Assembly: GCA_902580265.1 (NCBI GenBank)
Contig: CACHJY010000003.1
Coordinates: 1 to 64,000, forward strand
Direction of reading: 5' to 3'
From: an uncultured Alphaproteobacteria bacterium
Lineage (GTDB): Bacteria; Pseudomonadota; Alphaproteobacteria; Rhodobacterales; Rhodobacteraceae
DNA length: 64,000 bases
In this document: positions 4,030 through 49,391 of the stretch, one piece after another
How positions within the stretch are numbered: position 1 is the first letter of the stretch
Layout of the letters: each line of letters starts with the position of its first letter
Position numbers and translations under genes: made by a program
The notes under the pieces: model-generated
The model's input: only the letters and a program-made list of their open reading frames with translations
Database searches by the model: none
What the model was told of the DNA's origin: nothing

Positions 4030-5973
4030 TTATCCAGGAATCCTAAGAGTTTCTTGTCTGCTACCATTTGTAATATGAATTTTATCTAGGTCAATACTTA
4101 TTACCCTCCATCCATTTCCAAATTTTTGTCCTACTTTTACTTTTACCGTATTGCCTGAAGATAGCCTTATTAAAGCGATCCGTCCTGTTCTTTTCCCAAA
4201 AATGCCTATTAGATTTGTTCTATTTAGCTCTATTAAATTTTTAAGTGTTGAGTTTCCAACTATTGACGCCCTTTTTGGTATGCTTGGAGGTTTGCTTCTT
4301 ACGTTCAAGTTTCTAACTGAACTAGCGGCTACTTTTTTCAGATTACTCACAGCAGAAGGCATTTCAGGAGGAAGATCAACAAATGTCACTGCTCCTGTAG
4401 ACTTAGTGGGATTTTCTAAAACTTTAATTGAATCTATGATCTTTGGCTTTATCATAGGGTAATTGCCATTCCATGAAGCTACTTGTGTCGACACTTTTGC
4501 TTGATTGTTGTTTAACAACATAATATTGAGACCTTGCTCTTTAAGTTTTACATTAAGCTGATGGTTCAATTTCAATTCATTCCCATAAGTTGGATTAAGA
4601 ACGCTAATAAAAAGTTCTTCTGCAATTATGTCCGCGGGTCTAATAAAGGCTTTTTCCCCGTCATTAATAAAGTTAAAAACCCTTAACTGATCTGGCACAA
4701 GAATATCTGGCTTCTTGATATCAAAGAAAAGTAATGGGAGAGTACTAGCTCTTTTATTTGCTGTTGTAATTAAAATTTTAGTCGAAGATATGTCCGAAAA
4801 AATCTCTTCAATAACTATTTTTTTGTATCCATGATTTATAACTTTTTCCTTCTTTGGAGTTGAAAAAAAGCTTTTGCTTTCAAGGGTTTTAGAAACAGTT
4901 CTTGATTTTTTCGATGATTTCTTTTTTTTGTTAATTAAATTTGAAAAATCATCATCTATTATTGGAAGCGATTTAAATGTCTTTTTTTGTTGGTTCATAA
5001 AAAAATTTAATGAGTCTAAATTTTTCAAGTTAGAAAACTCTCTAATATCATCATTCTGGTTCGATTTTTCAGGAATTAAATTTGGAACTGATATTTCTTC
5101 CAGGGTAAATTCATTTATTTGTGTTGCTTTCAGGTTGAGATTTAGTTGGACTTCAACTGAGGATCTATTAATTGAATTTAATTCAAGGTGCTGATTTCTA
5201 GGCTTTTGAGGTATGTAAGAAAAGTTCAAACCTTTGGGTTTAAAAATTGAATTGTCTAGTATAGTAGGTGAAAGTTTTTTTACTTTTGCTAACAAAATGA
5301 TTTCGGGTTCTAAACTATTTTCTTTATCATTGAAGTTCCTTGGGTCAGCTAAATAGTTATAGGGTTTATTGTTAGACCTATATTCCAGATAAGTGGAGGC
5401 CAAAGATATTAAAAAGCCTGTGAATAGTAAAATACTGGTCAACGCTAGGACCTTTGTAAATGTTTTGCCTTCTATTTCAAAAAGTCGTTTTGAACTATTA
5501 TCATTAAAAAAAACGGGACTTTTTTTAAATCCAGAAATCTTACTTGAGGCGATATATCTTTCTGGACGAAACCCTGCTTTTTTTACAAAATTTCGAGACT
5601 CATTTATCGAATTCGCAGCTATAGCTGCAACGGGAACTGTACTTCTTGTAGATGATTCTCCGATTGCAATAAAGAGTTCATTTTCATTTAGTCCACAGCG
5701 TTTGGCTGTAACTTTTTTACAGTGTTCGATAGAAAAATTATCTTCAATAACGATGGTTTGTGAAAGGACTAGTTCTCGAGGAAGAAGGACGTCTACTATT
5801 GGCTTCTTTGTTGATAAAGCTGCTGCTTGATTTCTGAGTACTTCAAGATCTTTTTCAAGGTTTTTTGACGAAGGGTCAACTGACCCGAGTACATTCCAAG
5901 ATTTCTTACTACTTTTTTTCAGAAGTTGGATTGATGTCTTTGATAAATTTAAAGCTAGTTTATTTTTATTCAT
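4030..5973 (-). CDS. Bitopic membrane protein with GspC/PilP-like C-terminal domain
   Basis: I recognise no named gene. The 647-residue protein has a cytoplasmic N-terminal part of about 170 residues, one transmembrane helix near 174-196 (VLALTSILLFTGFLIS), a long lysine/serine-rich middle, and a C-terminal domain of about 60 residues (FGKRTGRIALIRLSSG... VKVGQKFGNGWRVISI). That last part has the look of the GspC/PilP homology region of type II secretion or type IV pilus inner-membrane proteins. The N-terminal part reads like a PilM/GspL-type actin-fold remnant, with less certainty. No other secretion or pilus gene lies nearby. The ATG at 5973 has no strong ribosome binding site but no better start is seen. 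Confidence 0.6.
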   Translation of the reverse strand: MNKNKLALNLSKTSIQLLKKSSKKSWNVLGSVDPSSKNLEKDLEVLRNQAAALSTKKPIVDVLLPRELVLSQTIVIEDNFSIEHCKKVTAKRCGLNENELFIAIGESSTRSTVPVAAIAANSINESRNFVKKAGFRPERYIASSKISGFKKSPVFFNDNSSKRLFEIEGKTFTKVLALTSILLFTGFLISLASTYLEYRSNNKPYNYLADPRNFNDKENSLEPEIILLAKVKKLSPTILDNSIFKPKGLNFSYIPQKPRNQHLELNSINRSSVEVQLNLNLKATQINEFTLEEISVPNLIPEKSNQNDDIREFSNLKNLDSLNFFMNQQKKTFKSLPIIDDDFSNLINKKKKSSKKSRTVSKTLESKSFFSTPKKEKVINHGYKKIVIEEIFSDISSTKILITTANKRASTLPLLFFDIKKPDILVPDQLRVFNFINDGEKAFIRPADIIAEELFISVLNPTYGNELKLNHQLNVKLKEQGLNIMLLNNNQAKVSTQVASWNGNYPMIKPKIIDSIKVLENPTKSTGAVTFVDLPPEMPSAVSNLKKVAASSVRNLNVRSKPPSIPKRASIVGNSTLKNLIELNRTNLIGIFGKRTGRIALIRLSSGNTVKVKVGQKFGNGWRVISIDLDKIHITNGSRQETLRIPG

Positions 5974-6068
5974 GTCAAGTTATCATAACAAACTGCAAAG
6001 CAAATATAATATATCATACTACATACAACTAGGAAATCTATTGGTATAAGTAATTGTCTAAACACTAC

Positions 6069-6824
6069 TTAAGCTTTTGATTGTATGTTGAATAGTGTTA
6101 CAGCAACTGCTGTAGATACATTTAATGATGAAAAACTGTGGTTGCCATCTATAGACACTAACATATCACAGTGTTCTCTAGTCAAACGCCTTATTCCTTT
6201 TCCTTCAGCTCCAAAAACGATAGCTAGATCTTTATTTGTTTTTTTGAATGAAGACAATTTATTTATTGAATTTTCATCAAGACCTACGACAAAATAGCCC
6301 AATTTCTTTAATCTAACGATTGTTTGGGAAATGTTTGGTACTTGTATATAACGCACTTGTTCGAATGCTCCTGAAGCCGCTTTAACAAGGCTTCCATTCT
6401 CACTTGAACCGCCATTGAGAGTATTAATGATAGCATTGCAGTTAAAGAAAAGGCTCGATCTAATAATAGCACCAACATTTTGTGGATCACTTACCCTATC
6501 TAAAATAACAACTAGTTTAGGCTGCTCGGTGTTAGGGATTTCATGGATGACGTCCGATTGCTTTAAAGGGCTCACTTTTAAAATTGCTCCTTGATGAACT
6601 TTATTTTCAGGAATTGGTAGTCTTGTTGATTTATCAAGATTAAAAATCGGCATGTTGGGTGTTTTGTTGTAATTGAAAATCTTAGCCCTTGCATTTTGAC
6701 TAATCCATAGCTCGTGTTTCCGACGGTTAGGATTTTCGAGTGCGGCCTTTACTGCGTGTAAACCAAACATATAGTAGTCACTATGTTCTATGATATTTTT
6801 TGACCTCTTAATATATTTGCCCAT
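6069..6824 (-). CDS. rlmB: 23S rRNA (guanosine-2'-O-)-methyltransferase, SpoU/TrmH family
   Basis: A SPOUT (trefoil-knot) methyltransferase that uses SAM to 2'-O-methylate a guanosine of 23S rRNA (G2251 in E. coli numbering). All three SpoU motifs are present: motif 1 VILDRVSDPQNVGAIIRSS, motif 2 AIVFGAEGKGIRRLTREHCD, and motif 3 SSLNVSTAVAVTLFNI. The N-terminal substrate-binding part starts with YYMFGLHAVKAALENP, typical of RlmB rather than of shorter TrmL or TrmH proteins. The length of 251 residues is normal. It stands alone on the minus strand, diverging from the tRNA-Tyr gene upstream of it. Confidence 0.92.
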   Translation of the reverse strand: MGKYIKRSKNIIEHSDYYMFGLHAVKAALENPNRRKHELWISQNARAKIFNYNKTPNMPIFNLDKSTRLPIPENKVHQGAILKVSPLKQSDVIHEIPNTEQPKLVVILDRVSDPQNVGAIIRSSLFFNCNAIINTLNGGSSENGSLVKAASGAFEQVRYIQVPNISQTIVRLKKLGYFVVGLDENSINKLSSFKKTNKDLAIVFGAEGKGIRRLTREHCDMLVSIDGNHSFSSLNVSTAVAVTLFNIQSKA

Positions 6825-6913
6825 CTTTATTTATAATAATTCATTTTAAACTTATATCTTTCTGTTTACACTTCGGCATATCAGTTGTAAAACCCTTTTA
6901 CGTCAAAGTTTCA

Positions 6914-6999
6914 GGAGGGGTGGCAGAGCGGTCAAATGCAACGGACTGTAACTCCGTCGGGGAAACCCTACATAGGTTCGAATCCTATCCCCTCCACCA
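6914..6999 (+). tRNA. tRNA-Tyr (anticodon GTA)
   Basis: A full class II cloverleaf folds here. Acceptor GGAGGGG (6914-6920) pairs with CCCCTCC (6989-6995), the discriminator is A and CCA is encoded (6997-6999). The anticodon stem ACGGA/TCCGT encloses CTGTAAC with anticodon GTA at 6948-6950. A long variable arm and the T arm ATAGG-TTCGAAT-CCTAT follow. Confidence 0.98.
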
Positions 7000-7122
7000 T
7001 TTAGAGCTTATAAAAATAAAAATGCATCTAAGGACTAAATCGAACTTTTGAATTTTCTTAACAAAAAATAGTTCGTGTCGTTTAACAAACTAGGAATTAC
7101 TTTTTAGTTTTTCTTTCAACAG

Positions 7123-7162
7123 GGAGGTCTTCTACTATCGTTAAGGGGTCTCCTTTTTTTTT
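7123..7162 (+). terminator. Rho-independent terminator-like hairpin
   Basis: GGAGGTC (7123-7129) pairs with GGTCTCC (7147-7153), including two G-U pairs, around a 17-base loop, and nine T follow at 7154-7162. This would end the tRNA-Tyr transcript or an unseen short RNA between 7000 and 7160. Confidence 0.6.
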
Positions 7163-7615
7163 GCAATTTCAAATCCTTTATTAGTCTAAAAAACTGCTCC
7201 ATGAGACTTTAAAATTTTATCCAAAATTATTTAAAAGCTAAAGAAAGATATATTTATAGGTTTTCATGACCATATAAAAAATGTTTTTTTATCTTAACTC
7301 CTTCAAGGAAAACGCCTGAGACTACCACGATTTTTTTTGGCTTCGTAACACTTCGCTTCATAATGCACCATTTGATCCTTTATTACAGAGTTGTCCCTTC
7401 GTTAAAAAATTTTCTAAGTATTAAGAAAAATAAAAACAAACTTTATAACAAAAAGATAAGACAAATGGATTTGACTTAATTTTCTTGTTGGTGTAGCTCT
7501 TCTCAGCAAAGCATAATATAATAATCATGTAAGACAGTAGTTAATGATTGAGGTAGTTATATTGTTCAACGGTAAGGATAATATAGATATTTAAATAAAA
7601 ACACTGTTAGAGACA
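7163..7615. other. Gene-free stretch between tRNA-Tyr and kdsD
   Basis: I see no convincing reading frame or RNA gene in this AT-rich stretch, nor between the tRNA and the hairpin at 7123. It should contain the kdsD promoter, but no single -35/-10 pair stands out. No clear ribosome binding site precedes the kdsD ATG at 7616. Confidence 0.5.
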
Positions 7616-8572
7616 ATGAAGAAAAAAACTATTCAAGAAATTGGCAAATTTGTTATAGAAACTGAGGCCTCAGCGCTTTCCAAGTTGGCAACAGATTTAC
7701 CAAAGGATTTTTCAGGTACTATAGAAGCAGTTTTGAAAACAAAGGGAAGAGTTATTGTCTCTGGCGTTGGAAAGTCTGGTCATGTTGGTAGAAAAATTGC
7801 AGCTACCTTGGCAAGCACTGGTACGCCAGCGAGCTTTGTACATGGAACGGAAGCCAGCCATGGTGATTTAGGAATGATCACTCCTGACGATTTTTGTTTA
7901 CTTATTTCTAATTCAGGAGAAACATCGGAGCTAAACGATATTTTGGCACACACCAAAAGGTTTGCTATACTTACAGCTGTCATATCTTCTTCCAAAAATA
8001 GCACTCTTATACAAGCAGCTGACTTTAAGTTATTGCTTACTGATGCTGCTGAAGCCTGCACCATCCGACTAGCTCCAACAACATCAACAATACTTACAAT
8101 GGCGTTGGGAGATGCATTAGCTGTTTCATTGATGGAGCAGCGAGATTTTAAGCCCGAAGATTTTCGGGTTTTGCATCCAGGAGGTAATCTTGGTTCACAA
8201 ATGCTAAAAGTATCGCAACTAATGCGAAAAAGAAGTGAAATGGCCATTGTAAAACATGATTTTTCTATGAGTAATATAATTTCTAGTATGACTGATACTG
8301 GTTTTGGAGTGGCAGTTTTAGTGGATGATAAAGGTATATTATCGGGAATAATAACAGATGGAGATCTAAGAAGAAACATTTATAACCTTCTAACTTATTC
8401 ACCTAGGGACATTGCAACATTGAACCCTAAATCAGTTAAACCAAATGATTTAGTATCTATTGCATTGGAAAAAATGGAAAAATCAAAAATTTATGCTGTC
8501 GTTGTAGTTGAAGAAGACCAGCCAGTTGGCCTTTTACGGATGCATGATATCTTACGATCAGGTATTAAATGA
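7616..8572 (+). CDS. kdsD: D-arabinose-5-phosphate isomerase, KpsF/GutQ type
   Basis: Converts ribulose-5-phosphate to arabinose-5-phosphate, the first step of Kdo synthesis for lipopolysaccharide. An N-terminal SIS sugar-isomerase domain (VSGVGKSGHVGRKIAATLAS, then HGTEASHGDLGMI and ISNSGETSEL) is followed by two CBS domains from about residue 205 (MRKRSEMAIV; LNPKSVKPND). The length of 318 is typical. Its stop overlaps the kdsB start as ATGA, so the two Kdo genes are coupled. Rhodobacterales often place this gene in an lpt cluster; here the partner is kdsB. Confidence 0.94.
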   Translation: MKKKTIQEIGKFVIETEASALSKLATDLPKDFSGTIEAVLKTKGRVIVSGVGKSGHVGRKIAATLASTGTPASFVHGTEASHGDLGMITPDDFCLLISNSGETSELNDILAHTKRFAILTAVISSSKNSTLIQAADFKLLLTDAAEACTIRLAPTTSTILTMALGDALAVSLMEQRDFKPEDFRVLHPGGNLGSQMLKVSQLMRKRSEMAIVKHDFSMSNIISSMTDTGFGVAVLVDDKGILSGIITDGDLRRNIYNLLTYSPRDIATLNPKSVKPNDLVSIALEKMEKSKIYAVVVVEEDQPVGLLRMHDILRSGIK

Positions 8573-40822: not shown

Positions 40823-40898
40823 GCCTCTATAGCTCAGCTGGTAGAGCAACTGATTTGTAATCAGTGGGTCGGGAGTTCGAGTCTCTCTGGGGGCACCA
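40823..40898 (+). tRNA. tRNA-Thr (anticodon TGT)
   Basis: Acceptor GCCTCTA (40823-40829) pairs with TGGGGGC with two G-U pairs, the discriminator is A, and CCA is encoded (40896-40898). The D arm is GCTC-GAGC, the anticodon stem ACTGA/TCAGT with loop TTTGTAA holds anticodon TGT (40856-40858), and the T arm is GGGAG-TTCGAGT-CTCTC. This intact tRNA is the integration target of the downstream element. Confidence 0.97.
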
Positions 40899-40906
40899 TC
40901 CAGTTA
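40839..40906 (+). repeat. attL: direct repeat covering the 3' part of tRNA-Thr
   Basis: These 68 bases, from the D loop to 8 bases past the CCA, recur without mismatch at 49324-49391 and in diverged form at 50779-50838. The pattern is the usual product of tyrosine-recombinase integration into a tRNA 3' end that restores the gene. Weaker similarity to the 49324 copy continues about 70 bases downstream, to the integrase start. Confidence 0.9.
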
Positions 40907-40963: not shown

Positions 40964-42103
40964 ATGGTAGACCAAAATGAAGCATATACATTCCAAAAAC
41001 GTGGAATATTTTATTTTTCAAAGCGAGTGCCATCAGATTTAAGAGAGTTTTACAAAGTTAGTCGTTTAACCTACTCGCTTAAAACTAAATGCCCTAAAAC
41101 AGCTAAGAAGCAGGTCAGAGATGCATTACATAAATTAGAGTTATATTGGAATAAAGTACGGATGGATAAGGAATTGCCATGCAGCTTATTTCTTGTATCT
41201 GCCACAAACAATCAAAGCAATGATTTACGCATTAAATTTACAGAGGCGGCCCACCTGTATCTAGAGTCAAAAGGTAAAAATAAAGGTGTTACCTTTTATA
41301 ACTCAGTTCAGAGAGCCACTAGATATATAATAAGCTCAATCGGAGATAAAAATTTAGCCAGTTATACTAGAGCCAATGCAAACTCCTTTAGAGATTATCT
41401 CTTAAAGAGAGAATTAGCAGGAAGTTCTATTACAAGAATCTTAGCTATCGTAAAGGCTATCTTTAACTTTGCTAACAATGAATATGGTTCGAGCTTAAAA
41501 AACTACTTTAGTGGACTCCAATATGACCGATTTGCAAGGGTAGGGAGCAGAGAGCCAATTCCGCTAGATGATATAAGAATTATTCAAAAGAGATGCATTG
41601 AGATTAATGATGAACTGAGATGGCTTGTAGCACTCATATCAGATACTGGGATGAGGTTAGCAGAAGCAACTGGTCTTTTGGTTGAAGATATTACACTAGA
41701 CACAGAGGTACCATGTGTTTTGGTGCAAAGCCATTCTTGGAGACCTTTAAAAACAAAGGGAAGCAGAAGAAATATTCCTTTGGTCGGAAAAGCTTTGTGG
41801 TCAGCCAAGAGAGTCAAGGAAATATCGGAAAGCAAATTTGCATTTCCAAGATATAACAAATCAACCTTTACTAATACAAATACTGCAAGCGCATCGCTTA
41901 ACAAATGGTTGAGAAGTGAAGGCTTTGGTCAGTATAGCATGCATAGCTTTAGACATTCATTGAGAGATAGACTGAGATATGTAGCTTGTCCTAACGAGAT
42001 TAGTGACCAGATAGGTGGTTGGTCCAATAAAACAGTTGGGCAGAATTATGGTGATGGTTACAGGTTATGTGATTTGAATAAATGGATGCAAAAACTGGTA
42101 TGA
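40964..42103 (+). CDS. int: Tyrosine recombinase (integrase)
   Basis: A 379-residue phage-type integrase. The N-terminal part (KRGIFYFSKRVPSDLREFYK, SLKTKCPKTAKKQVRDALHK) is the DNA-binding head seen in many alphaproteobacterial integrases. A SAM-like core-binding domain follows, then the catalytic domain: Arg231 in SDTGMRLAEATGL, LKTKGSRRNIPLV, His327-x-x-Arg330 in MHSFRHSLRD, and Tyr362 in GWSNKTVGQNYGDGY. All key residues are present, so it should be active. AAGGAGGG lies 8 bases before the ATG, and the start codon sits inside a tandem TAGACCAAA repeat, likely an integrase arm site. It begins 66 bases after the tRNA CCA. Confidence 0.94.
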   Translation: MVDQNEAYTFQKRGIFYFSKRVPSDLREFYKVSRLTYSLKTKCPKTAKKQVRDALHKLELYWNKVRMDKELPCSLFLVSATNNQSNDLRIKFTEAAHLYLESKGKNKGVTFYNSVQRATRYIISSIGDKNLASYTRANANSFRDYLLKRELAGSSITRILAIVKAIFNFANNEYGSSLKNYFSGLQYDRFARVGSREPIPLDDIRIIQKRCIEINDELRWLVALISDTGMRLAEATGLLVEDITLDTEVPCVLVQSHSWRPLKTKGSRRNIPLVGKALWSAKRVKEISESKFAFPRYNKSTFTNTNTASASLNKWLRSEGFGQYSMHSFRHSLRDRLRYVACPNEISDQIGGWSNKTVGQNYGDGYRLCDLNKWMQKLV

Positions 42104-42427: not shown

Positions 42428-42757
42428 ATGGCTATCTTTGAGAAATTTAACGAAGCTTGGGAAAGTAGAAATATAGATAAATTAACTGAATTCTTCCATC
42501 CAGATTGGGAGTTTCAATTTCACTCAACGGGTAAAGTCATAAAACTTGAGGAATGGAAAGAGTTCTTTGGAAAAATATTACAAAATCCTGATGTAAAACG
42601 TGATAATGTTAGATGCATTTATGAGAATGAGGATATAATAGTCATTCATAGCATTACAACATTTCCGAATGGTAAAGATGCCGTGATGTATGTTGGACTA
42701 AAAAGAGACGGTAAGATTTATCGTTCTGAAACTGGCTCTACACCTCTTCCAGATTAA
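42428..42757 (+). CDS. NTF2-fold (SnoaL-like) small protein
   Basis: A 109-residue protein with the NTF2-like cone fold pattern: N-terminal helices (MAIFEKFNEAWESRNIDKL), then FFHPDWEFQFHSTGKVIKLE, the helix EWKEFFGKIL and four strands (VRCIYENEDIIVIHSIT, VMYVGLKRDGKIYRSETG). Proteins of this fold range from ketosteroid-isomerase-like enzymes to ligand-binding subunits; no catalytic set is clear here. AGTAGGAG lies about 6 bases before the ATG. It is a paralogue of the four NTF2 genes at 46333-47761, sharing HPDxxF, EEW, YE(N/D)E and (D/E)GKI(Y/W)R. Confidence 0.8.
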   Translation: MAIFEKFNEAWESRNIDKLTEFFHPDWEFQFHSTGKVIKLEEWKEFFGKILQNPDVKRDNVRCIYENEDIIVIHSITTFPNGKDAVMYVGLKRDGKIYRSETGSTPLPD

Positions 42758-43531: not shown

Positions 43532-43855
43532 ATGTCTGCACTAATCAATTATACTACTATCGCCTTTACATCAGAATTTGAAATGAACGAGATGATAAAG
43601 CATATCGATGATACTAGTAAAGTATGGGCACCTGAAATGAAAAAACGCGGTCTAAAACGTTTTGTTTGTACACGCATTTGGAACAAAGGTGATACATTTA
43701 AGTTAGGGATTTTATTTGAATACGATACAAAAGAAGCATTTCAAGCAAACGTTGCGTATTTAGATGAACAATTTAATACACTTCCCAAAACAAAAGAATT
43801 GATGACTATGGCAAAAATGGAAGGAAGCCGAGGCATTTCAGTTTTTGAAGCTTAA
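43532..43855 (+). CDS. Hypothetical protein, 107 residues, possible dimeric alpha/beta-barrel fold
   Basis: Not recognised. The pattern of strand (LINYTTIAFTS), long helix (FEMNEMIKHIDDTSKVWAPEM), strand (RFVCTRIWNKGD), strand (FKLGILFEYD) and helix fits a ferredoxin-like dimeric alpha/beta-barrel protein, a fold shared by small monooxygenases and stress proteins. This is inference from pattern only. A short GGAA lies 7 bases before the ATG. It stands alone, between remnants, within element 1. Confidence 0.55.
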   Translation: MSALINYTTIAFTSEFEMNEMIKHIDDTSKVWAPEMKKRGLKRFVCTRIWNKGDTFKLGILFEYDTKEAFQANVAYLDEQFNTLPKTKELMTMAKMEGSRGISVFEA

Positions 43856-43934: not shown

Positions 43935-44228
43935 TTACTCTTTATCTTCGTTAACCCAGGTACGGCATACATTTTGTACATCAGAAGTTAGAAAAACATT
44001 GGTGAAACAATAAAATACCTTCTTGTCATATTTGATAATATTAATAAAAGAATTGCCAGATATTTGTTGTTGAAATACTTCCCCTTTAGATAAGACAACT
44101 TCTATGTCGCCTTGTGATATTTCTACATACTTTCCTTCTTTCTCCTTCTTAATTGAATATGTTTTCGCAAAGCTTAGAGATGAAAAGATAAAAGTTAGTA
44201 TTGATGTTAGTAGCAAAAGCTTCTTCAT
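43935..44228 (-). CDS. Small secreted protein, 97 residues
   Basis: A clear signal peptide (MKKLLLLTSILTFIFSSLSFA, cleavage likely after SFA) precedes a 76-residue beta-rich mature part with two cysteines (VFYCFTN and VQNVCRTW), which may form a disulfide. GGAG lies upstream of the ATG. No family is recognised. Signal quality and ribosome binding site make it a credible gene. Confidence 0.6.
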   Translation of the reverse strand: MKKLLLLTSILTFIFSSLSFAKTYSIKKEKEGKYVEISQGDIEVVLSKGEVFQQQISGNSFINIIKYDKKVFYCFTNVFLTSDVQNVCRTWVNEDKE

Positions 44229-44512: not shown

Positions 44513-44599
44513 ATGATAAAATATAAGTTAACAACAATGGCCATATTAGCTTTGCTATTTCTATCAGCTTGTAATGATGGGGGAAGCAGTGGGTACTGA
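44513..44599 (+). CDS. Very small lipoprotein, 28 residues
   Basis: Codes MIKYKLTTMAILALLFLSAC followed by NDGGSSGY. The lipobox LSAC is good, and AAAGGA lies about 9 bases upstream. After processing only 9 residues remain, the size of phage or colicin release lipoproteins and of entericidins. Its 3' end overlaps the next small gene in another frame. Confidence 0.5.
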   Translation: MIKYKLTTMAILALLFLSACNDGGSSGY

Positions 44600-44753
44600 G
44601 AAAGCTGTTGAGATAATTGATATATACACTCATAAGGTAGAGAAGAGATTAGATAGACTAGGAACGTACTTAGTCTTTATCGTAATACCTTTGTTATTAC
44701 TTATAGCAATGCAGCTAGGTGCTTTAATTATCTACCTGTTTAGTTCTAGCTAG
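44574..44753 (+). CDS. Small membrane protein, 59 residues
   Basis: The frame opens at tandem ATGs (44574 and 44577) inside the lipoprotein gene. An N-terminal amphipathic, charged helix (EKAVEIIDIYTHKVEKRLDR) is followed by one strong membrane helix (YLVFIVIPLLLLIAMQLGAL). This layout occurs in small phage and plasmid membrane proteins, including holin-like ones, but no family is recognised. The overlap with the lipoprotein gene suggests coupled translation, and the pair sits upstream of the replication genes. Confidence 0.5.
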   Translation: MMGEAVGTEKAVEIIDIYTHKVEKRLDRLGTYLVFIVIPLLLLIAMQLGALIIYLFSSS

Positions 44754-44909: not shown

Positions 44910-45296
44910 ATGGTTGTGGCTATACTAATAACAAACTTTTATGACCTTGTTGAGCATACTTGTTCTGCTATACAGACCTTTGAGAAAAGAAAGAATAAGC
45001 GTAGCAAGAGAGAACAGAAAGGCTTTGAACTCGCTGTAAAACATATACTTGAGTTACTTTGGAAGTCACATCAGAGCTACCCATATAGACTACCGAAGAT
45101 TAACTTAAATGGTAACTTTTATAGAAGTTCAAACAGATACAAAGAAGAAGGTTTAACCTATCGCCACCTGATAGAAAATGTATATCAACCATTGCAAAAG
45201 ATGGGATGGATTAAAGAGTATCGTAAGGGCTACAATGACAGGGCTGGAGAGGGCAACTCTGATATCACATGGTTTTCAGACCAAGCAGGAGTTTAA
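44910..45296 (+). CDS. Replication-associated protein, N-terminal partner of the polymerase-like gene
   Basis: A 128-residue basic, helical protein (KRKNKRSKREQKGFELAVKH; LTYRHLIENVYQPLQKMGWI; GYNDRAGEGNSDITWFSD). Motifs of this sort precede the polymerase-like part within single long proteins known to me from proteobacterial elements, so this is probably the detached N-terminal, winged-helix-like part. It ends 2 bases before the next gene, and its last codons contain that gene's ribosome binding site. The first in-frame ATG is used; no strong site precedes it. Confidence 0.55.
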   Translation: MVVAILITNFYDLVEHTCSAIQTFEKRKNKRSKREQKGFELAVKHILELLWKSHQSYPYRLPKINLNGNFYRSSNRYKEEGLTYRHLIENVYQPLQKMGWIKEYRKGYNDRAGEGNSDITWFSDQAGV

Positions 45297-45298
45297 AG

Positions 45299-46330
45299 AT
45301 GACTCTTGAGTCCTTAGAAGGTCACTCAAGCATAACTATAAAGCCAGACTTAACTAGAGAGTGCATCATATTAAGAGACGCAACAGGCAACAATGTACCT
45401 GACTATAAAGATACTGCTGTAACAAGAGTTATGCGAGATAACCTAGTTGCAATAAATGAATTTTATCAGAAGCATCATTTAGACTTACGAATTAAGAATA
45501 CAGACTACAAGAAACTGTCCTGTGAATTACTGCAAAAGAAAAAGACTAACAGAAGGCAAAGACAGCGCCAGCTAGACTTCTCTAGGAAGGTTTTGGCTAG
45601 AATATTTAATGATGGAAAATGGGGAGTTGGTGGACGATTTTACTATGGTTGGTGGCAGGAGATACCAAAGGGATATAGAAAATACATTACCATAGATGAA
45701 GGCTTTACTACAGAACTAGACTACTCTGCTTTACATCCTCATATGGTCTACTACCAAAATGATTTAGAGATGGGAACTATAGACCCTTACACACTCATCC
45801 TGCTCGTGGGTAAGATAGAGCTAAACGACGTTAACAGGAACATTATCAAACAGGTTTTCAATGCAATGCTCAATGCGACGAGAGTAATGATTAGACAACC
45901 AAGAGGACTTGATTTAAAGCCATTAAAAAAGAAGTGGGGAGAGATAGTACCCATTGTTTTACAAGCCCACCACGAGATACAGCATATGTTTTTTAAAGGT
46001 TACGGGGGGCTGCTACAGTATGAAGATAGTTGTATAGCTGAAGATGTAATGTTAGCAGGAATGAAAGAAAACATTGTCTGCCTTCCGGTACATGACTCCT
46101 TCAGAGTGCGTAGACAACATGAGAATTTCTTGCGGAAAACAATGATGGCATCCTTCTTTAAAAGGTGGCGTAAAATTCCCAAAATGAAAGAAGGCGATTT
46201 GCTACAACCTTTTGACTATTATGATGAAGGAGGTAATCCAAGAACTGAAGAGATAGCCAAAGAGGATAGGCTTTATAGTAAGTGGTATGATAGGAACGTT
46301 TTATGGATGCATAGAGAAATAAAGGGGTAA
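45299..46330 (+). CDS. Polymerase-like replication protein
   Basis: A 343-residue protein with motifs reminiscent of a family A-type polymerase palm: GRFYYGWWQEIPKGYRKYIT, a motif-A-like TELDYSALHPHMVYY with an Asp before S-x-LHP, a helix with KQVFNAMLNATR, and a motif-C-like VCLPVHDSF with His-Asp. I recall this architecture from uncharacterised proteins on mobile elements; the polymerase role is inference. The start is ATG 45299 with AGGAG 7 bases upstream, so it need not be a frameshifted end of the previous gene, although homologues may be fused. NTF2-fold genes follow at once, 2 bases after the stop. Confidence 0.6.
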   Translation: MTLESLEGHSSITIKPDLTRECIILRDATGNNVPDYKDTAVTRVMRDNLVAINEFYQKHHLDLRIKNTDYKKLSCELLQKKKTNRRQRQRQLDFSRKVLARIFNDGKWGVGGRFYYGWWQEIPKGYRKYITIDEGFTTELDYSALHPHMVYYQNDLEMGTIDPYTLILLVGKIELNDVNRNIIKQVFNAMLNATRVMIRQPRGLDLKPLKKKWGEIVPIVLQAHHEIQHMFFKGYGGLLQYEDSCIAEDVMLAGMKENIVCLPVHDSFRVRRQHENFLRKTMMASFFKRWRKIPKMKEGDLLQPFDYYDEGGNPRTEEIAKEDRLYSKWYDRNVLWMHREIKG

Positions 46331-46332
46331 AT

Positions 46333-46695
46333 ATGTCAATGAATTGGGAAAGAGTTAAAGGGGTTTTGGAAAGCTCTGACAAAGTTAAAGAAGCCTCAAA
46401 GGTTGGAGAAGAATACGCTCATGATGATTATATGTTTGTATCTGAAACTAAAATGGCTGTTGGCGAAGAAATGGTCGATTTAATACAAGAAGAAGCCGAA
46501 AAAAATAATTACATGCTCGAGGACTACAAACTTCTATACGAAGATAAGTACGTCATACTTTGGAAAGAATTGGGATATTTTAAAGATGGAAAGAAATTTA
46601 TCAAAACTGTTTGTATGTTTTTGAAAGATGGAAAAATTTGGAGAGAAAGTGATAATAGAGTCTTTGTTAAAGAGGACGAAACCATAGATGGTTAG
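46333..46695 (+). CDS. NTF2-fold small protein, array member 1
   Basis: A 120-residue protein that starts 2 bases after the polymerase-like gene, with AAAGGGG 6 bases before its ATG, so it is almost certainly co-transcribed with that gene. It has a helical N terminus (WERVKGVLESSDKVKEASKV), DDYMFVSETKMAVGEEM, LEDYKLLYEDKYVILWKELG and FLKDGKIWRES. The strand-turn LYEDxxVI and the DGKIWR strand align with the other members. It is the most acidic and diverged of the set. No catalytic residue pattern is evident. Confidence 0.75.
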   Translation: MSMNWERVKGVLESSDKVKEASKVGEEYAHDDYMFVSETKMAVGEEMVDLIQEEAEKNNYMLEDYKLLYEDKYVILWKELGYFKDGKKFIKTVCMFLKDGKIWRESDNRVFVKEDETIDG

Positions 46696-46752
46696 AGTGA
46701 ACCTCAAGTTTGTCTATCCTCGATAATGTTAATTGAAATAACAGATTAAGGT

Positions 46753-47106
46753 ATGATGTCTAGCAAGTATGAAATGAGAATCAATATTCTTAAAAATAGA
46801 GACTATGAGTCAGCGATAAATCAGTTACACGAAGATTTCATGTATATTCGAGAAGAGGGCCTGGTAAGTAGGGCAGAATATATTGAATATGCGCGAGAAG
46901 ACCTTGAAGGCGCTAACAAGTTAATTTTTTTAGACTTTAAATGCGTAGTAGAGAATGAAGATTCCCTTGTCTGGCAAGATTTATTTGATGACCAGCAAGG
47001 AAAACGATGGATTACTACCACTTATGAAGCATACAAAGATAAAAAAGTCTGGAGAGCAATGCTTAATAAAAAAGAAGTTAGAAAAGATGTGGAGAAGATA
47101 CCATGA
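46753..47106 (+). CDS. NTF2-fold small protein, array member 2
   Basis: A 117-residue paralogue: YEMRINILKNRDYESAINQL, LHEDFMYIREEGLVSRAEYI, FKCVVENEDSLVWQDLF and AYKDKKVWRAMLN. The HxDF and W-R positions align with members 1, 3 and 4. The 57-base gap before it is the only break in the array. Tandem ATGs at 46753 and 46756 leave a one-codon doubt in the start. Its stop overlaps the next start as ATGA. Confidence 0.75.
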   Translation: MMSSKYEMRINILKNRDYESAINQLHEDFMYIREEGLVSRAEYIEYAREDLEGANKLIFLDFKCVVENEDSLVWQDLFDDQQGKRWITTTYEAYKDKKVWRAMLNKKEVRKDVEKIP

Positions 47107-47444
47107 CGGGATATGAGAAAATGATACGGATACTTCATCAAAAAGATATGATGCTTCTTGAAGCGAGTGTAGCTGATGACTATCTTTGGATTTATGAGAT
47201 GAAGATGTGGACTAAAGATGACTTCCTCAAGCAGATGAGTGAGCTTTTTCAAACGAATATCGTTAGAGACAGATTTTTTGACGAGGAATGTCTATATGAA
47301 GATAAGGACATTGTAAACTATACCAGATTAGAGAAAGAAGAAAGTGGGGAAATATTACGTATTACGGGAACTATCCTTTTAAATGAGGACGGTAAGTTTT
47401 GGAGGAGTATTGAAAAAGGAACAAAGATACAGGATGCCTTATGA
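47103..47444 (+). CDS. NTF2-fold small protein, array member 3
   Basis: A 113-residue paralogue: MTGYEKMIRILHQKDMMLLE, VADDYLWIYEMKMWTKDDFL, DEECLYEDKDIVNYTRLEK and LLNEDGKFWRSIEKG. The short N-terminal helix (YEKMIRILHQKD) aligns with FDKMIKLIEEKD of member 4. Both ends overlap neighbours by four bases (ATGA), a sign of tight translational coupling and fixed stoichiometry. Confidence 0.78.
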   Translation: MTGYEKMIRILHQKDMMLLEASVADDYLWIYEMKMWTKDDFLKQMSELFQTNIVRDRFFDEECLYEDKDIVNYTRLEKEESGEILRITGTILLNEDGKFWRSIEKGTKIQDAL

Positions 47445-47761
47445 GTAACTTTGATAAAATGATTAAGCTTATTGAAGAAAAAGACATTAAAGGGATGGAG
47501 GAGTGGCTTCATCCAGACTTCCTATTTGTAGTTGATTACGAAATGGAAACACGGGAGGAGTGGCTCAAGGAGACAAAGCGATTACTAGACGAGGATGAAT
47601 TTTCAATCCTTAACATTAAACTACTGTACGAAGACGAAAATGTTATTGTTCATCAAGGAAAGTACGATGTTGAAGGCACTCAAAACACTACCGTAAGCAC
47701 TACCCATCTCAGAGAAGGGCGACCTTGGAGGCAGTTAGTCAATAGATTAGCGGTAGGCTAA
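47441..47761 (+). CDS. NTF2-fold small protein, array member 4
   Basis: A 106-residue paralogue, the closest to the solitary copy at 42428: MSNFDKMIKLIEEKDIKGME, LHPDFLFVVDYEMETREEWL, IKLLYEDENVIVHQGKYD and HLREGRPWRQLVNR. HPDFLF and EEW match HPDWEF and EEW of that copy. It starts within the stop of member 3 (ATGA) and ends the array; the next gene faces it after 10 bases. Confidence 0.8.
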   Translation: MSNFDKMIKLIEEKDIKGMEEWLHPDFLFVVDYEMETREEWLKETKRLLDEDEFSILNIKLLYEDENVIVHQGKYDVEGTQNTTVSTTHLREGRPWRQLVNRLAVG

Positions 47762-47771
47762 ATCTTTTGTT

Positions 47772-47960
47772 TTATCTGTAGTTTCTTTTTCCATCTACTC
47801 TAACACGCTGATACAACGTTTCAGGTAGATTGTAGGCTTGGTAGATATTGTTAGATATTGATGTTCTGTTTTGATAAACGGTCTTAACAACCCACTTGGC
47901 TCCTTTGAAGCCAAGAAATCCCAACATGCCGAGAAACATTAAACTTGTCATTACACACAT
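47772..47960 (-). CDS. Possible small membrane protein, 62 residues
   Basis: The N terminus is hydrophobic (MTSLMFLGMLGFLGFKGAKW) and a basic tail ends YQRVRVDGKRNYR. Several in-frame ATGs exist (47960, 47951, 47939) and none has a good ribosome binding site. It shares a 13-base string and the RVRV tail with the small gene at 43199-43312, suggesting a small paralogous pair. Confidence 0.4.
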   Translation of the reverse strand: MCVMTSLMFLGMLGFLGFKGAKWVVKTVYQNRTSISNNIYQAYNLPETLYQRVRVDGKRNYR

Positions 47961-48042: not shown

Positions 48043-48351
48043 TTAGCTTGAAATCTTTTGGGTTCTCTTGTGACCCAAACCAGCCTCAATCCATGGCTCA
48101 TCCATTGTGCAGGTAGACAGGTCAGCTAAGTCGAAAAATGTCTTCATTGTTTGACCTGAGGGCTCTACGTTTGGTCCCCATGAGCCATCATGCTCTACTA
48201 TAATTGCCACTACATTAGGATTTTGCCAATAAAACTTTGCGTCGCTAACACCTGAATTAGATTTAGCATTTTTACAAAAATTCAATGCTGCAATACCAAA
48301 GTTATCTCTATTAGCACCACTTTTCATTTCCCATTTTGAGACCTGCAACAT
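48043..48351 (-). CDS. Hypothetical protein, 102 residues
   Basis: Not recognised by family. GGAGG sits 8 bases before the ATG, a strong ribosome binding site, so it is a credible gene. The pattern of strand (MLQVSKWEMKSG), helix (NFGIAALNFCKNAK), strands (DAKFYWQN, VVAIIVEHDGSWG) and helix suggests a ferredoxin-like dimeric alpha/beta-barrel fold, as in small stress-type monooxygenase-like proteins. This is inference. It faces away from the right-end-like repeat at 48501. Confidence 0.6.
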   Translation of the reverse strand: MLQVSKWEMKSGANRDNFGIAALNFCKNAKSNSGVSDAKFYWQNPNVVAIIVEHDGSWGPNVEPSGQTMKTFFDLADLSTCTMDEPWIEAGLGHKRTQKISS

Positions 48352-48710: not shown

Positions 48711-49157
48711 ATGGAAACAATACTAATTGAGTCTGGGTATTATTCCCATTTATTTAATGATGACCCTGTAAGGCCTCACTTAACAGAAGAATTTAGGTTA
48801 TCCAACAATAGGCTGGGATTAGCTTTAATTGATAATCATAATTGTAAGGCAGCAGTCTGCATCGCAATTTCTAACGAAGTTCCAACAAATGAAATTGAAT
48901 TAGATGAGTTCTCCTCGGACCAGACAGGCATTGAAAAATCGATAGCGATATTTTACACAATTTGGAGTTACGATAAAGGATGTGGTCGAAAGATGTTATT
49001 TAATGCTGTAGATTGGCTTCAAAAGAATAGACCTGAAATTAAGCGCTTTGTTACGCTGAGCCCAAAGAACAATATGGCAAGAAATTTTCATCTTAAAAAT
49101 GGAGCTAAAGAATTAAGTGTTAATTCAGATTCACTTAACTTCGAGTACTTTATATAG
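48711..49157 (+). CDS. GNAT-family N-acetyltransferase-like protein
   Basis: A 148-residue protein with the GNAT pattern: a strand IAIFYTIWSYDKGCGRKMLF covering motif A (with G-x-G-x-K/R), a helix VDWLQKNRPEIK, then RFVTLSPKNNMARNFHLKNG, the typical motif B with LSPxNxxAxxFHLKNGA. The acceptor is unknown. It lies between two right-end-like repeats and just upstream of att copy 2, so it is likely cargo of an older insertion. Confidence 0.7.
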   Translation: METILIESGYYSHLFNDDPVRPHLTEEFRLSNNRLGLALIDNHNCKAAVCIAISNEVPTNEIELDEFSSDQTGIEKSIAIFYTIWSYDKGCGRKMLFNAVDWLQKNRPEIKRFVTLSPKNNMARNFHLKNGAKELSVNSDSLNFEYFI

Positions 49158-49260: not shown

Positions 49261-49323
49261 TTTAAATGATGCAAAAATCTATGTTAAACTATACGTAAGT
49301 AGCCAAGAAAAGCTTATCATAGT

Positions 49324-49391
49324 TGGTAGAGCAACTGATTTGTAATCAGTGGGTCGGGAGTTCGAGTCTCTCTGGGGGCACCATCCAGTTA
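49324..49391 (+). repeat. Att copy 2: direct repeat of the tRNA-Thr 3' part
   Basis: Identical over 68 bases to 40839-40906. The tRNA 5' half is missing, so it is not a functional tRNA. Its downstream flank (49392-49463) resembles the integrase-proximal flank of attL, while its upstream flank resembles that of the 50779 copy, so it is both the right end of element 1 and the left end of element 2. Confidence 0.9.

Follow-up and report, generated by a model that had tools for sequence, protein, structure and literature searches.

Ketosteroid isomerase, the SnoaL cyclases, and LinA are NTF2-type proteins that bind or convert small organic molecules, and NTF2 folds can also serve proteins without a small-molecule ligand. 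We examined an array of four tandem NTF2-fold paralogues, here called N1 to N4, in a 64,000-nucleotide stretch of DNA from an uncultured alphaproteobacterium (the whole stretch is referred to as the window). The closest known proteins are the SnoaL-like and ketosteroid isomerase-like proteins of the Pfam families SnoaL_2 and DUF4440, but N1, N2, and N3 reach no curated Pfam cutoff. These genes form a tandem array in the slot of an element, with no pathway context recognized. Bal32a, another NTF2-like protein, is encoded by a single gene in a mobile gene cassette, whereas the array studied here is coupled and lies in a tRNA-targeted integrase element. Paired NTF2-fold proteins are described as acting together in the polyether epoxide hydrolases MonBI/MonBII and Lsd19, with MonBI strongly enhancing MonBII (PMC8827043). 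In contrast to those systems, no polyketide synthase or monooxygenase cluster was recognized here, and the array differs in its members from element to element.

The tRNA-flanked cargo islands of aquatic bacteria, Tycheposons among them, are described as having a tRNA border, a tyrosine recombinase, and cargo genes, with sizes of 4 to 200 kb (PMC10872708). The window element shares the tRNA border with its repeat, the tyrosine recombinase, and the cargo genes, but it has a family-A-like polymerase gene and mostly small-protein cargo. PICMI phage satellites are described as small integrative elements with an integrase, a replication gene, and a fis site (PMC10803314). The window element is likewise small and integrative, with an integrase and a replication gene, but its site is tRNA-Thr rather than fis, and neither alpA nor a primase was recognized. 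No terminase or capsid match at an E value of <0.01 was found by Pfam and PHROG among the window proteins scanned, and PHROG gave only weak matches to a tail fiber (0.083, N1) and a virion protein (0.25, product of 43935 to 44228). The array is real and recurrent, and it lies on a known type of element, a cargo island that is integrated at a tRNA gene and has a modular slot. A literature search found no report of such an NTF2-fold array.

An integrative element at tRNA-Thr

The array lies in an integrative element of about 8.5 kb bounded by a tRNA-Thr and a 68-bp exact direct repeat. The integration target, a tRNA-Thr(tgt) gene (40823 to 40898, plus strand), was found by ARAGORN and Rfam. The left repeat copy (attL, 40839 to 40906, plus strand) matches the right copy (attR, 49324 to 49391, plus strand) exactly. 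The right copy carries a tRNA-Thr fragment, with an Rfam tRNA match at 49312 to 49380 (32.8 bits against a cutoff of 29). The tyrosine integrase gene (40964 to 42103, plus strand) matched Pfam DUF6538 (5e-16) and Phage_integrase (3e-12) as well as PHROG 1 (6e-35). Integrase, tRNA gene, and repeat bear out the location on a mobile element that an earlier note on this DNA had proposed.

Several other genes of the element have close copies elsewhere. A DUF6974 protein (43532 to 43855, plus strand; Pfam, 4e-12) has a 100% identical copy in G007:C26, and a 97-amino-acid protein with a signal-like N terminus by eye (43935 to 44228, minus strand), a backbone marker, has counterparts at 96% identity in both G009:C28 and G007:C26. 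Near the right end are a 102-amino-acid protein (48043 to 48351, minus strand) without a Pfam or NCBIfam match, whose copies in G001 and G002 are 96 to 97% identical, and a GNAT-like acetyltransferase, named by eye (48711 to 49157, plus strand), without an NCBIfam or PADLOC match and 97 to 99% identical in G001 and G019. An NCBIfam search with ten window proteins gave none above the cutoff. A scan for promoter-like sites found 7, compared to a shuffle mean of 13.1, and no terminator-like site was found in the same scan.

Two tiny ORFs, both membrane protein-like by eye, flank the polymerase and cargo as conserved backbone markers. The first (59 amino acids; 44574 to 44753, plus strand) is the left border of the polymerase module and precedes the polymerase gene in G017:C33, G009:C28, G007:C26, and G008:C20. 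The second (62 amino acids; 47772 to 47960, minus strand) is the right border of the cargo slot and is also present in G017:C33, G007:C26, G008:C20, G002:C8, and G017:C27, as well as in L001 by eye.

The tRNA-Thr was present at 8 of the 10 relative loci selected by ThrS, and integrases adjoin it in L002, L007, L009, and L010. At the same tRNA-Thr, locus L001 has a 2.8-kb stretch (4850 to 7702) with an exact 30-nucleotide repeat of the att core on both sides. This stretch carries the window's right-end genes at 96 to 99% identity, and no array, polymerase, or integrase was recognized in it.

The NTF2-fold paralogues

The four paralogues occupy 46333 to 47761, downstream of the polymerase-like gene, and all are encoded on the plus strand: N1 at 46333 to 46695, N2 at 46753 to 47106, N3 at 47103 to 47444, and N4 at 47441 to 47761. 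A fifth, the SnoaL-like N0 (42428 to 42757, plus strand), is 95 to 98% identical in four other genomes and also lies inside the element. N1 starts 2 nucleotides past the end of the polymerase ORF, and N2/N3 and N3/N4 overlap by ATGA. The arrangement of four coupled genes and a separate fifth stands as it had been described. Curated Pfam cutoffs were passed by N0 (SnoaL_2, 2.3e-10 and 41.4 bits; DUF4440, 29.8 bits) and by N4 (DUF4440, 25.8 bits). As a control of family membership, a leave-clade-out profile search was preferred over pairwise blastp run without composition correction, and it recovered N1 with an E value of 1.3e-19 and N2 with 1e-24.

Profile searches of the PDB with the NTF2 family gave a best E value of only 0.54. 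The cone fold claimed in the earlier note was predicted for N3 and N4, the two members modeled. Their single-chain AlphaFold models (pLDDT of 92.6 and 93.5, respectively) have the NTF2/SnoaL cone with helices and strands in NTF2 order, and their top structural matches, obtained with Foldseek and VIA, were designed NTF2-like, SnoaL-like, and ketosteroid isomerase-like proteins. D26, E64, and W96 were invariant and R97 nearly so in a 16-member alignment, while in a 50-member alignment E64 alone was invariant and D26 nearly so. These conserved residues need not be catalytic. Judging from the fold, N1 to N4 are probably cup-shaped proteins that bind small molecules.

Recurrence of the array and a possible pairing of its members

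The array recurs in other genomes. Neither of the two outcomes that the earlier note had named as refuting, predicted structures lacking the cone fold or an array found nowhere else, was observed. N2, N3, and N4 are found in G002:C8 at 97, 94, and 83% identity, respectively. The ATGA overlaps are kept there, and a broken integrase gene, 82 to 89% like that of the window, lies about 2.4 kb away. In G017:C33, the order is an N1-like gene, the small membrane gene, an intact polymerase gene (77%), a further type designated N2', N4, and the right-border gene. In G009:C28, the polymerase gene (39%) is followed by N2' and N4 until the contig ends. N4 is therefore in all four element-borne arrays seen, but the membership changes from N1-N2-N3-N4 in the window to N2-N3-N4 in G002 and N2'-N4 in G017 (with the N1-like gene separate) and in G009 (to the contig end). 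An obligate four-member complex, which had been suggested for these proteins, is thus unlikely.

Smaller assemblies were also considered. Co-translated paralogues could associate as heterodimers, one partner serving to activate or regulate the other, as with MonBI/MonBII. ATGA overlaps are seen in the arrays of the window, G002, G017, and G009, and MonBI/MonBII as well as Lsd19, a protein with tandem NTF2 folds, are among the structural matches of N4. However, the available partners differ among these four elements and many family copies stand alone, and we regard such pairing as distinctly unlikely.

The polymerase-like gene and the cargo slot

The gene upstream of the array is split into two overlapping ORFs (44910 to 46330). 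The N-terminal piece (44910 to 45296, plus strand) matches the N terminus of intact relatives such as P0001, and the C-terminal piece (45269 to 46330, plus strand) has family-A-like palm motifs and matches PHROG 4756 (E value of 2e-42). The nearest full-length relatives are single ORFs of about 450 to 470 amino acids, and the split reflects either a mutation or an assembly error. Among 1698 candidates, 197 relatives were found at an E value of ≤0.001. Residues of the types D-[YF]-S-like, R-x3-K, and HDSF are kept in 21 relatives and resemble motifs A, B, and C of the family A palm. Pfam and PDB profile searches with the polymerase-like protein gave no match, a genome-contig scan using the polymerase piece found nothing, and a pattern search of viral contigs found no relative of P0001. 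Distant relatives of this compact family-A-like polymerase occur in large Vibrio and Aeromonas phages.

The proximity of N1 to this gene raises the possibility that the array belongs to the replication or maintenance machinery of the element, with its products partnering the polymerase-like protein. The polymerase gene is likewise followed by N2' and N4 in G017:C33 and G009:C28. A family copy lies within about 10 kb of 8 of the 16 polymerase genes in the group (within about 2.5 kb of 4 of the 16), compared to a random fraction of 0.036 (binomial, 2.8e-8, a guide only, since copies and genomes are not independent). Distances were taken from start to start with a 1.4-kb tolerance. The 16 genes come from 23 rows, of which three belonging to other genomes than those of the group, two representing pieces of one broken gene, and two that were short fragments were set aside. 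N3 also has a weak match to Phi29_Phage_SSB (E value of 0.075; 13.7 bits against a cutoff of 25). However, the other 8 of the 16 polymerase genes, some of them on short contigs, have no copy within about 10 kb, and many family copies are at loci without a recognized polymerase gene. The idea of a fixed replication partner is further weakened by sister elements that lack the array: G007:C26 and G008:C20 share the border genes, but the profile search found no family copy beside the polymerase gene or elsewhere on those contigs. A role in replication is therefore unlikely.

What occupies the space next to the polymerase gene differs between sister elements. Both border genes are present in 4 of the 16 polymerase loci laid out, the window included. 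NTF2 genes lie between the polymerase gene and the right border in two of these (the window and G017:C33), and in the other two, G007:C26 and G008:C20 (the latter with a broken polymerase gene), DUF6494/DUF4177 genes fill the slot. In G017:C27, an N4-like gene occurs together with DUF6494/DUF4177-type genes, and no polymerase gene was seen. Since sister elements hold NTF2 genes, DUF6494/DUF4177 genes, or both, the stretch from the polymerase gene to the small membrane protein gene at 47772 to 47960 is an exchangeable cargo slot.

Distribution of the family

A ThrS search returned ten loci at 86 to 90% identity to the window (G001 to G010, uncultured Alphaproteobacteria), with the next best at about 59%. 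We inferred a near group of 22 genomes from this search (G001 to G010) and from the top of the relatives lists (G011 to G022). The host group is probably marine, as suggested by the naming of the single-cell genomes and by one homologue cluster also derived from Tara. The array homologue P0137 is labeled Paracoccaceae.

The family profile gave 53 matches in 9 of the 10 ThrS-selected genomes (E value of ≤0.01). Across the 22 nearest genomes, there were 98 matches in 20 genomes, or about four to five per genome, some of which are pieces of broken copies; these genomes are incomplete, and absences from them are weak evidence. At a threshold of 1e-4, 24 of 148 relatives matched, and the four outside the nearest 22 were G055 (1.6e-23) and three weak matches (5e-7 or worse). 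In a class-wide draw of 385 genomes, 10 matched at 1e-5, one of them G001, and the best of the others reached 6e-15. A protein database search yielded 137 homologues at an E value of ≤0.01, mostly on short contigs. From these profile matches, the family appears to be scarce outside the near group and expanded in one, probably marine, alphaproteobacterial group.

Evolution of the paralogues

The earlier note had read the differences among the paralogues as fast divergence, and the substitution rates between orthologues contradict this. Within eight hand-chosen orthologue sets, two of which are chromosomal-locus sets and not array genes, dN/dS was below 0.4 in all 45 defined pairs out of 50 (5 pairs were saturated). 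The values for element-borne array genes were 0.24 for N1, 0.14 for N2, 0.10 for N2', 0.14 for N3, and 0.03 to 0.11 for N4 (six pairs). The array genes are under purifying selection.

In a tree of 80 copies, limited to those that covered 76 or more profile positions within the retrieved regions and thus short of the full 98 matches, N0 to N4 fell in separate clades, each with members from other loci or elements. Support was 1.0 for N1, 1.0 for N3, 0.98 for the wider N2 group, and 0.94 for element-borne N4, with lower values for N4 plus its chromosomal sisters (0.70) and for N2' plus its sisters (0.34). A fresh tandem duplication of N1 to N4 was rejected because their separate clades are shared with genes elsewhere. 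An apparent arms-race array can thus consist of old, conserved paralogues assembled by recombination.

Synonymous divergence differed among neighboring genes. Between the window and G002, dS was 0.10 for N2, 0.19 for N3, and 0.80 for N4, compared to 1.12 for thrS. Between the window and G001, two right-end genes had values of 0.07 and 0.12, compared to 0.93 for thrS. We read the values below that of thrS as horizontal exchange, with histories that differ within one array. In a separate observation, P0130 appears by eye to be a natural chimera, with the front of one subfamily and an N2-type back joined at a shared HEDFMYI motif, which suggests recombination between paralogues.

Possible roles of the array

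The mobile location and the co-translation of several paralogues had prompted the suggestion of defense or antidefense, in which the proteins would sequester a signal molecule, such as a nucleotide, in conflicts between phage and host or between elements. The terminase-small-subunit-like genes that adjoin family copies in L130, L137, and L139 point in the same direction. This role gained no support from PADLOC, in which the best E values among ten window proteins were 0.014 (N1) and 0.017 (product of 43532 to 43855), at about 13 bits. N0 to N4 had no PHROG match better than an E value of 0.01, a search of IMG/VR viral contigs with a single peptide pattern found no array relative, and the strong purifying selection also argues against such a role, which we hold to be decidedly improbable.

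Immunity had been proposed as well. With their small size, their divergence, and their tandem layout next to a recombinase gene, N1 to N4 resemble acquired interbacterial defense clusters, and as an orphan immunity array each paralogue would neutralize a different toxin of competing bacteria. N4 has a weak match to Tli4_N (E value of 0.05; 14.2 bits against a cutoff of 26.5), but no other immunity family was found among the Pfam matches of N0 to N4 at an E value of ≤1. The type VI secretion protein VipB was found in 0 of 15 near-group genomes searched, compared to 2 of 8 other genomes. We consider an immunity function the most improbable of the roles discussed here. Scarcely more credible is a plug-in slot for combinatorial, co-translated NTF2 sets, whose mixed oligomers would soak up signaling or defense molecules while elements compete by swapping members; we know of no description of such a modular, swappable NTF2-fold capture system.

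The reading that we favor, with a probability of roughly 0.55, is that N1 to N4 are exchangeable SnoaL-like cargo, each retained for a small molecule of its own, to the benefit of the host. The slot of the tRNA-Thr element would take in the paralogues as co-translated cargo from an old SnoaL/NTF2-fold family, and each would most likely bind or convert its own small organic molecule. The host may gain a metabolic or detoxifying benefit, which would pay for carriage of the element. The observations favor cargo of this kind over a fixed complex and over an arms race because the paralogues are old and conserved, the membership changes, the slot is exchangeable, and the other cargo is ordinary. Small-molecule capture by the array proteins is plausible. 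The window element, small and from an uncultured alphaproteobacterial group, shows a cargo slot that takes in sets of ligand-fold proteins from a group-wide reservoir. With their small size and two confident models, these proteins offer a practical way to learn what such bacteria exchange. Should their ligands be found, the array would reveal which chemistry these elements are retained for.

Neighbors of other family copies

Some neighbors of other family copies are ligand-fold or metabolic genes, namely, SnoaL, DUF1330, YdhR, ABM, cupin, and thioesterase genes, and no biosynthetic cluster was recognized beside the array. A Pfam tally did not show known ligand-fold families to be commoner near the copies than further off. 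It covered 79 of the 87 near representatives and 87 of the 102 far ones (the rest, window rows or open-ended ORFs, were dropped). DUF6974 was counted 3 times in the near set and 3 times in the far set, DUF1330 once and twice, and 4HBT thioesterase 2 and 3 times, respectively, while ABM occurred twice near copies and did not appear in the list of 25 families for the far set.

Protein families of about 97 to 138 amino acids without an above-cutoff Pfam match recur next to copies (L111, 9129 to 9422; L119, 8670 to 8969; L140, 3192 to 3521). A cluster of recurrent 97-amino-acid neighbors, whose representative has only a subthreshold Pfam match, was counted 14 times among 279 near ORFs and 4 times among 500 far ORFs, taken from the window and the first 34 loci, a count inflated by synteny between genomes. 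The terminase-small-subunit-like genes adjoining family copies (L130, 9328 to 9732; L137, 7553 to 7957; L139, 10380 to 10691) form one cluster, the representative of which matches Terminase_2, and these three loci may be satellite or prophage remnants.
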